The notes beneath the pieces are model-generated. The model did no database searches. It saw only the letters and a program-made list of their open reading frames with translations, and was not told the origin of the DNA. Shown piece by piece: positions 43,880 through 44,500 of a stretch of DNA of 64,000 nt. Source of the stretch: Bryobacterales bacterium (lineage in GTDB: Bacteria; Acidobacteriota; Terriglobia; Bryobacterales; Bryobacteraceae); assembly GCA_003142185.1 (NCBI GenBank), contig PLOR01000095.1:62001-126000 (forward strand). Direction: 5' to 3'. Each line of letters begins with the position of its first letter. Position 1 is the stretch's first letter. The translations under genes were made by a program, and so were the position numbers.

Positions 43880-43920
43880 GCGGGGCGGTCGGTAGAGCGT
43901 TTGTTCCGCTCCCGACGGGC
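43880..43920 (+). pseudogene. Likely tRNA-Gly relic
   Basis: GCGGGGCG, GGTAGAGCG, TTCC and CCCGACGGGC appear in the order of a tRNA-Gly but with large deletions, leaving about 40 bases. The position between tRNA-Tyr and tRNA-Thr is where a tRNA-Gly commonly sits in this conserved cluster. Confidence 0.5.
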
Positions 43921-43929
43921 AAGAGTTTC

Positions 43930-43995
43930 GCCGTTGTAGCTCAGTTGGTAGAGCGTCCGTGATCGGAAGGTCACCGTTCAGCTCCCGGTAGGGCA
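43930..43995 (+). pseudogene. Degenerate tRNA-Thr copy
   Basis: Begins GCCGTTGTAGCTCAGTTGGTAGAGCG exactly like the intact tRNA-Thr 75 bases on, then the anticodon arm is replaced (TCCGTGATCGGA) and the 3' end fails to pair with the acceptor. It has no CCA. Not functional. Confidence 0.75.
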
Positions 43996-44004
43996 AAGAG
44001 TTTC

Positions 44005-44080
44005 GCCGTTGTAGCTCAGTTGGTAGAGCGCGTCCTTGGTAAGGACGAGGTCACCAGTTCAATCCTGGTCAACGGCTCCA
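44005..44080 (+). tRNA. tRNA-Thr (GGT)
   Basis: 76 bases with encoded CCA. GCCGTTG pairs with CAACGGC; anticodon loop TTGGTAA gives GGT; T arm CCAGTTCAATCCTGG is normal. The only intact copy in a set of repeats. Confidence 0.96.
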
Positions 44081-44093
44081 GATTTTATAGTCG

Positions 44094-44150
44094 TTGGTAG
44101 AGCGTCCGTAACGGAAGGTCACCAGTTCAATCCTGGTCAACGGCTCCAGA
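44094..44150 (+). repeat. tRNA-Thr 3'-half duplicate in front of the GIY-YIG gene
   Basis: GTTGGTAGAGCGTCC..GGAAGGTCACC, AGTTCAATCCTGG and TCAACGGCTCCA repeat the D-arm-to-CCA part of tRNA-Thr with a shortened anticodon arm (TCCGTAACGGA). The 5' acceptor half is missing. Confidence 0.85.
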
Positions 44151-44151
44151 T

Positions 44152-44415
44152 TTGCAGTGGTTTGTATACGTCCTTCGGAGTATTCCGACTGGGCGCCACT
44201 ACATCGGAATGAGCTCGGATGTGGAGCGGCGTCTTCAGGAACACAATACGAAGACGGGGCGTTGGACCAGCAGTTTCAAGCCTTGGGAGCTGATCGCTCT
44301 TGAGGAGTTTGGGTCGCGTAGCGAAGCCGGCAACCGGGAACGGTTCTTGAAAAGCCGGGCTGGCCTAGCAGAGCGGCAGGGTTTGTATGGGCAGTTGGGC
44401 GGAGCGAAGCGGTAG
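44152..44415 (+). CDS. GIY-YIG nuclease superfamily protein
   Basis: 87 residues from a TTG at 44152. FVYVLRSIPTGRHYIGMSSDVERRLQEHN is the GIY-YIG core (here VYV...YIG), with the Arg-x-x-x-His segment after; EAGNRERFLKSRAG is a later conserved patch. Small stand-alone members (COG2827) have unknown roles. It sits between two copies of the tRNA-Thr 3' half, in the place where an EF-Tu gene (tuf) is usual. Its start codon adjoins the upstream repeat. Confidence 0.8.
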   Translation: MQWFVYVLRSIPTGRHYIGMSSDVERRLQEHNTKTGRWTSSFKPWELIALEEFGSRSEAGNRERFLKSRAGLAERQGLYGQLGGAKR

Positions 44416-44500
44416 GCGTCCGTAACGGAAGGTCACCCGTTCAATCCCGATCAACGGCTCCAGTATTACGCACAGTTGACTGCTCCGGAGTATTCCAAAC
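44411..44500 (+). repeat. Second tRNA-Thr 3'-half duplicate with GIY-YIG relic
   Basis: GTCCGTAACGGAAGGTCACC and TCAACGGCTCCAG match the copy at 44094-44150. It continues into CCGGAGTATTCCAAACGGGGC, close to the 5' coding region of the GIY-YIG gene (encoding LRSIPTG; here LRSIPNG), so a second, truncated nuclease copy follows. Confidence 0.8.

Follow-up and report, generated by a model that had tools for sequence, protein, structure and literature searches.

Small GIY-YIG nuclease genes flanked by hairpin-bearing tRNA halves: an apparently undescribed kind of element, probably mobile, at bacterial tRNA genes

Introduction

REP/RAYT and IS200/IS605 systems tie short palindromes to one small DNA-cutting protein, as does the tRNA-associated element described here, but their proteins are HUH tyrosine transposases rather than GIY-YIG nucleases and they are not confined to tRNA genes. 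In sequence and fold the nuclease of the element is closest to UPF0213/YhbQ and Slx1, which are housekeeping single-domain or repair proteins, Slx1 being a branched-DNA nuclease; to our knowledge no tRNA-element layout has been described for them. SegB and other free-standing GIY-YIG homing endonucleases of T-even phages share with the element a nuclease gene that lies beside tRNA genes; SegB has been implicated in cleavage inside tRNA-containing sequences, and it promotes the recombination-driven amplification of the tRNA-nuclease segment (PMC13096335). Unlike the element, SegB is phage-borne, and the accessible part of its description mentions neither hairpin-bearing tRNA halves nor a spare-tRNA layout (PMC13096335). 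The tRNA islands (tyrosine-recombinase ICEs and prophages) likewise insert at a tRNA gene, where they rebuild one intact copy and leave another incomplete, but they need an integrase, with examples of about 9-23 kb (PMC9897764), whereas the element has one nuclease of 80-100 aa in less than about 1 kb, and its partial tRNA copy is disarmed by a hairpin.

Here we analyse a 64,000-nucleotide stretch of an acidobacterial genome (the window; Bryobacterales bacterium, GenBank assembly GCA_003142185.1, contig PLOR01000095.1, positions 62,001 to 126,000), in which a GIY-YIG gene sits among fragments of a tRNA-Thr gene, and compare it with similar loci in other bacteria.

Results

The tRNA-Thr locus of the window

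The host operon runs tRNA-Tyr, tRNA-Thr, (tuf, absent here), rpmG, tRNA-Trp, secE and nusG, with the tRNAs for Tyr, Thr and Trp being the only ones called in the region by ARAGORN and Rfam, all of them intact (Table 1). That one intact tRNA-Thr lies amid partial copies of itself, as an initial annotation made from the sequence had proposed, is borne out by both programs and by repeat alignments, which identify four partial copies: two 5'-half units upstream and two 3'-half units downstream of the intact gene, the latter on either side of the GIY-YIG gene.

Table 1. Features of the tRNA-Thr locus, in positions of the window
Feature	Positions	Strand	Description	Evidence
tRNA-Tyr(GTA)	43785..43873	+	host operon context	ARAGORN, Rfam
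5'-half unit A, decayed tRNA-Thr	43874..43922	+		alignment to unit B vs shuffles
5'-half unit B, 75 nt	43923..43997	+	leader, tRNA-Thr nt 1-26 exact, hairpin TCCGTGATCGGA replacing anticodon arm, worn 3' part	
intact tRNA-Thr(GGT)	44005..44080	+		ARAGORN; Rfam tRNA 69.8 bits
3'-half unit 1	44093..44148	+	D-arm piece, hairpin TCCGTAACGGA 44105-44115, tRNA-Thr nt 44-76 with CCA 44116-44148	
GIY-YIG nuclease gene	44152..44415	+	87 aa, TTG start, intact	PF01541
3'-half unit 2	44409..44462	+	D-arm trace over GIY-YIG stop codon, hairpin TCCGTAACGGA 44419-44429, tRNA-Thr nt 44-76 44430-44462	
second GIY-YIG gene, worn 5' end	44464..about 44510	+	rest removed by deletion	alignment to relative L004 vs shuffles
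rpmG (L33)	44570..44722	+		Pfam Ribosomal_L33

The two 3'-half copies share 94% identity (44102-44149 versus 44416-44463), and their tRNA-Thr nt 44-76 match the intact gene at 33/33 and 30/33 positions, with unit 2 also ending in CCA. The upstream copy that had been described simply as decayed is indeed a partial tRNA-Thr, yet is better described as a 5'-half unit: an exact 35-nt repeat (43921-43955 = 43996-44030) identifies it as a tRNA-Thr 5' half followed by a hairpin and a worn 3' part. In the partial copies of the window a TCCG..CGGA hairpin, with stems of only 4 bp, stands in for the anticodon arm. Unit A aligns with unit B at a score of 45 (maximum 32.5 in 500 shuffles) and is, judged from this alignment, an older copy of it; the tRNA-Gly relic that had been suggested here was rejected, its scores against three Gly tRNAs of family relatives falling within the shuffled range. 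The short stretch encoding LRSIPNG was rightly seen as the start of a second GIY-YIG gene, as it aligns with the relative L004 at a score of 50.5 that none of 1000 shuffles equalled. We read the intact tRNA-Thr as a spare copy belonging to the element.

Elsewhere in the window a HicB-like antitoxin gene (PF15919) occupies 42743-42952, with no obvious HicA partner among the listed ORFs, and three consecutive genes of low-molecular-weight phosphatase fold (arsenate-reductase-like by eye) lie on the minus strand at 46840-48256, adjoined by an SBF-family transporter at 48404-49489.

The GIY-YIG gene and its product

Membership of the GIY-YIG superfamily is defined by the GIY and YIG motifs, a central Arg and a C-terminal Glu, all of which are present in the window protein (PF01541, E 3.6e-15); Y17, G19, R27 and E63 are invariant among 42 relatives and Y6 is nearly so. 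A predicted model (pLDDT 80) matches GIY-YIG folds, with 1zg2 and 6seh leading the fold search, and the closest solved relatives by sequence are 1zg2 (E 3.3e-16) and Slx1 (7cq2, E 5.9e-07). Against the group I intron endonuclease family TIGR01453 the protein scores 23.9 bits, below the cut-off of 56.05, and thus falls outside it. The GIY-YIG gene is under purifying selection in the window's group, with dN 0.15 and dS 1.90 between the genes of two relatives (L003 and L004), dS being saturated in comparisons with the window gene. The protein is a bare GIY-YIG domain with no separate DNA-binding domain, which we count against the tRNA-specific mechanism proposed below.

Apart from the window gene, the genome holds one more GIY-YIG match, in a 677-aa open frame that we take to be UvrC. 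A comparison of the window protein and two element proteins with PHROG matched no family, the plasmids searched gave no match, and the phages searched gave a single weak one in Rhizobium phage RHph_Y65. Viral contigs had no match to an alignment led by the window protein and two to a second query, A3 (described below), one of them with a tRNA-Pro element. The latter, an IMG/VR contig binned as viral (L317), carries repeated hairpin-bearing tRNA pieces.

The same site in related genomes

Among 150 genomes of the window's family 17 have a GIY-YIG match, and by protein search the gene lies beside tRNA-Thr only in the window genome and in three others (G094, G121 and G057; L003-L005). A further genome, G133, has a decayed GIY-YIG gene at tRNA-Thr (L046) that the protein search missed. 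Of 67 tRNA-Thr loci 4 are occupied, plus L005. Within one genus the same Tyr-Thr-tuf locus holds a decayed element in G133 and is empty in G073. The gap from tRNA-Thr to tuf has a median of 79 nt over the 67 loci, and measures 292-333 nt in the occupied loci that have tuf. Clear partial Thr copies are limited, among these orthologous loci, to those with a GIY-YIG gene, the one exception being a 15-nt relic (L031). Seven other family loci have D-arm matches, at -188 to -285, that coincide with a second tRNA-Thr upstream. As a negative control, the 15 family loci that bear another GIY-YIG subfamily (L006-L020) were inspected, none of which is near a tRNA (0/15).

The absence of tuf between tRNA-Thr and rpmG is shared by the window with L026, L028, L033, L037 and L052. 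Since these five loci are element-free, the loss of tuf is not a consequence of the element, and we rejected that explanation.

A free-standing homing gene is expected to lie at the site it targets, to occur patchily there among relatives, and to spread by gene conversion after cutting alleles that lack it. Patchy presence at one site is seen here (4/67 plus L005) and again in Mucilaginibacter, where 19 of 61 genomes have a match at E <= 1e-10. The occupied tRNA site would be the cleavage target of the nuclease.

Recurrence at other tRNA genes and in other phyla

If the pairing of tRNA fragment and nuclease were more than a local accident it should recur at other tRNA loci, the key check put forward with the initial annotation, and it does so at Val, Ala, Asn, Asp, Lys, Ser, Leu, Met, Pro, Arg, Gly and Thr tRNAs in many phyla. 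In other families of Acidobacteriota a GIY-YIG gene lies downstream of Met, Val and Asn tRNAs, with the 3' half of the same tRNA behind it. As the window protein on its own gave no matches in a genome scan, the cross-phylum search (one genome per species) used A3, a query made from two Acidobacteriota relatives known to adjoin tRNAs, and returned 80 loci. An intact same-strand tRNA lies within 260 nt of the GIY-YIG gene in 63/80 of these, against a chance expectation of 1.6% of flank positions, although with query loci that adjoin tRNAs this cannot be taken as an unbiased rate for GIY-YIG genes in general. On the far side of the nuclease gene, 52 of the 63 carry a partial copy of that tRNA. 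Several of the remaining 17 loci end at contig edges, and several are arrays with the tRNA farther off.

Element loci occur in at least ten phyla; by record titles, the phyla and candidate groups include Bacteroidota, Chloroflexota, Acidobacteriota, Verrucomicrobiota, Nitrospirota, Thermodesulfobacteriota, Armatimonadota, Poribacteria, Aminicenantes and several Patescibacteria. No recent transfer, in the sense of the same element with near-identical sequence in a different host, was caught among them.

Anatomy of the element

Partial tRNA copies were found in 76 of 88 loci (5' halves in 33, 3' halves in 63, both in 20). A perfect hairpin of at least 5 bp, typically TCCCGA..TCGGGA, abuts 123 of the 134 partial copies and is present in 38.8% of control windows; a CCCG..CGGG hairpin is found at 68 of the 134 versus 1.3% of controls. 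The 5' halves end mostly at nt 23-30 (38 in Asp and Met) and the 3' halves begin mostly at nt 43-56 (31-34 in some Asn and Lys loci), which places the lost part in or beside the anticodon arm. The breakpoints in the window, 26 and 44, are typical of element loci. In ARAGORN output, hairpin-bearing partial copies turn up as tRNAs with odd anticodons.

The clearest locus is L169, in which a 36-nt direct repeat (CCTGCCTGTCA-TCCCGATGAAGTCGGGA-CGGGTTCA), made up of the end of the 5' half, the hairpin and the start of the 3' half, splits a disarmed tRNA-Asp around a cassette: tRNA-Asp nt 1-38, hairpin, GIY-YIG gene and intact tRNA-Asp with its terminator are followed by the same 36-nt repeat, the 3' half and the terminator once more. 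In L226, L174, L198, L199 and L225 the order within the cassette is intact tRNA first, GIY-YIG gene second, with 5' halves upstream and 3' halves downstream. Leaders or terminators are also duplicated in element loci, consecutive 350-bp units are identical in L225, and in L171, from position 1221, about twelve 107-bp units, each a hairpin with a tRNA 3' half, come after a tRNA-Pro and adjoin one GIY-YIG gene. The numbers of 5' and 3' units within a locus are unequal, which suggests that simple nested insertion is not the whole story.

These layouts uphold the earlier idea that a tRNA fragment and a GIY-YIG gene repeat together as a unit, while revising the extent and order of that unit. A unit of tRNA-Thr 3' half plus nuclease is too small, as upstream 5' halves, hairpins in place of the anticodon arm and an intact tRNA also belong to the element, and in the element the GIY-YIG gene comes first and the 3' half second; the opposite order in the window arises from tandem repetition. 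The unit may reasonably be inferred to home or otherwise to move. The existence of an element family is well supported by this layout, by its recurrence at many tRNAs and in many phyla, by its patchy presence and by its identical tandem units.

We found no integrase gene: GIY-YIG is the sole supported gene of the window's tRNA-Thr-rpmG unit, and in the clearest relatives the layouts are too tight to hold another, so that the gene content of an integrase island is lacking. Likewise, neither the window nor 14 element loci matched an Rfam intron model at the gathering threshold.

Nuclease lineage and tRNA identity

In Mucilaginibacter, one and the same genome carries GIY-YIG lineages at tRNAs for Val, Leu, Met and Ser. 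For the first three of these, other genomes of the genus have related genes at the same tRNA kinds. On a tree of 91 proteins that is poorly resolved (85 columns), and in which near-copies favour the clustering of any label, tRNA identity changes 29 times, against a mean of 58 when labels are shuffled (0/200 as low). The corresponding figures are 10 changes for Bacteroidota only (shuffled mean 21.6, minimum 18) and 6 for Acidobacteriota only (mean 9.4, minimum 7). Given the poor resolution and the near-copies, we take this tracking as support, not proof, for the idea that each nuclease lineage may be dedicated to one tRNA identity.

Other settings of GIY-YIG genes

A second GIY-YIG group, whose proteins often end in SGSGRAF..KHLW, is found downstream of Ser, Ala or Asn tRNAs at distances of 120-330 nt (L092, L099, L107, L117, L133 and L156). 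Repeats of the CCTTCGCT..AGCGAAGG type lie in the gap between tRNA and gene in L092, L099, L107 and L117, and no tRNA fragments were found at any of the six loci. In a Patescibacteria MAG (L176) a GIY-YIG gene lies inside the 23S rRNA gene, at about 2340-2800, between arms TTCCCGCACCTTTTTC and GAAAAAGGTGCGGGA; this insertion looks intron- or IVS-like and has no Rfam intron match. Two further Patescibacteria loci (L183 and L206) have GIY-YIG genes away from tRNAs, bounded by inverted repeats (TCCCGATTTTG.. and ..CAAAATCGAGGATCCTCGA..TCGGGACA).

Discussion

We propose that these loci are the work of an element of less than a kilobase, with a structure-specific nuclease that promotes recombination into the anticodon arm of tRNA genes, leaving behind a disarmed tRNA gene and a spare working one, a reading to which we assign a probability of roughly 0.6. 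In its full form, which is preserved at other loci, the element consists of a tRNA 5' half (A), a hairpin, a short spacer, a cassette, a D-arm piece, a hairpin and a tRNA 3' half (B), where A and B are the halves of the resident tRNA gene with its anticodon arm swapped for a hairpin, and the cassette comprises an intact tRNA with terminator and the GIY-YIG gene, in either order. Cleavage and mobility are what we infer from such layouts. The single-domain nuclease would cut the anticodon-arm or hairpin structure of the tRNA gene, and with UPF0213 and Slx1 as the nearest solved relatives recognition of a hairpin or cruciform is plausible. Homologous-recombination repair through the flanking tRNA sequence would then insert the cassette, whose spare tRNA would keep the cell alive. 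With the resident copy disarmed, loss of the cassette would cost the cell that tRNA, and as recombination between the direct repeats would leave only the disarmed gene the cassette should be hard to lose. Repeated insertion or unequal exchange would produce tandem arrays that later decay. The locus in the window would represent a late, decayed stage of such a tandem copy, reading as two 5' units, the intact tRNA, a first nuclease gene that was probably deleted (44081-44092), a 3' unit, the intact nuclease gene, another 3' unit and a truncated nuclease gene. Counting against this explanation, the intact tRNA inside the element should be a target of the nuclease too, no recent transfer was caught, the 5' and 3' units differ in number within a locus, the hairpins of the window have stems of just 4 bp, and the 80 loci came from queries that themselves adjoin tRNAs.

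The same fragments might instead act at the RNA level, the GIY-YIG protein being a tRNA nuclease and the hairpin-bearing partial tRNAs serving as decoy or regulatory RNAs, so that the two would form a selfish, toxin-antitoxin-like pair and not a DNA element. Partial copies keep the D-arm, the T-arm and sometimes CCA, they lie on the same strand as the tRNA and so can be transcribed, and the tracking of tRNA identity by nuclease lineages would also fit. However, half of the acceptor stem is missing from these copies, the solved structures nearest to the protein are those of UPF0213 and the DNA structure-specific Slx1, and the duplicated leaders and terminators, together with the 36-nt direct repeat of L169, resemble products of DNA recombination. 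We therefore regard an RNA-level system as unlikely.

Passive tandem duplication, in which unequal recombination of tRNA genes carries along a housekeeping GIY-YIG gene and the fragments are neutral debris, would account for the identical tandem units and for the worn state of most window copies. It does not readily account for the same hairpin at the same tRNA position in unrelated phyla and different tRNAs, for GIY-YIG lineages that sort by tRNA identity even inside one phylum, or for the control genes of the other subfamily in the window's family, none of which is near a tRNA, and we consider it improbable.

That tRNA-targeting integrase islands and prophages leave a complete and a partial tRNA at opposite ends (PMC9897764) would fit remnants composed of attR-like tRNA fragments and one cargo gene. 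The layouts here, however, are shorter than about 1 kb, and the same single gene recurs in them across many phyla. We know of no integrase element that swaps the anticodon arm for a hairpin or leaves 5' halves upstream, and such an origin seems very unlikely. A group I or similar self-splicing intron with a GIY-YIG gene in the anticodon loop can be dismissed almost entirely: group I introns do use anticodon loops and GIY-YIG genes, and L176 has such a gene within 23S rRNA, but no Rfam intron model reached threshold in the window or in 14 element loci, and the adjacent tRNA is uninterrupted.

Returning to the recombination-driven element, our search of the open literature, with subscription papers and preprints outside its range, found no description of hairpin-disarmed tRNA halves together with a spare tRNA, and the element is apparently an undescribed kind of mobile element. 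We place the arrangement among elements of the free-standing homing-endonuclease kind, and see a substantial chance that it merits a class of its own. Such a class, which we suggest tentatively and at a little short of even odds, would be that of an autonomous bacterial element of <1 kb that uses a hairpin to disrupt essential tRNA genes in their anticodon arm, becomes indispensable as the carrier of the only working copy, and has one nuclease lineage per tRNA identity.

If our reading is true, many orphan GIY-YIG genes of Bacteroidota, Acidobacteriota, Chloroflexota, Verrucomicrobiota and Patescibacteria, together with odd surplus tRNA calls in these groups, would belong to one selfish element family, and a class of false tRNA annotations, the odd-anticodon calls by ARAGORN on hairpin-bearing partial copies, would be explained. 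It would also provide a testable system that ties nuclease specificity to tRNA identity, and would mean that an element of a single gene can target essential, conserved genes while the host survives by means of the replacement copy that the element itself supplies.
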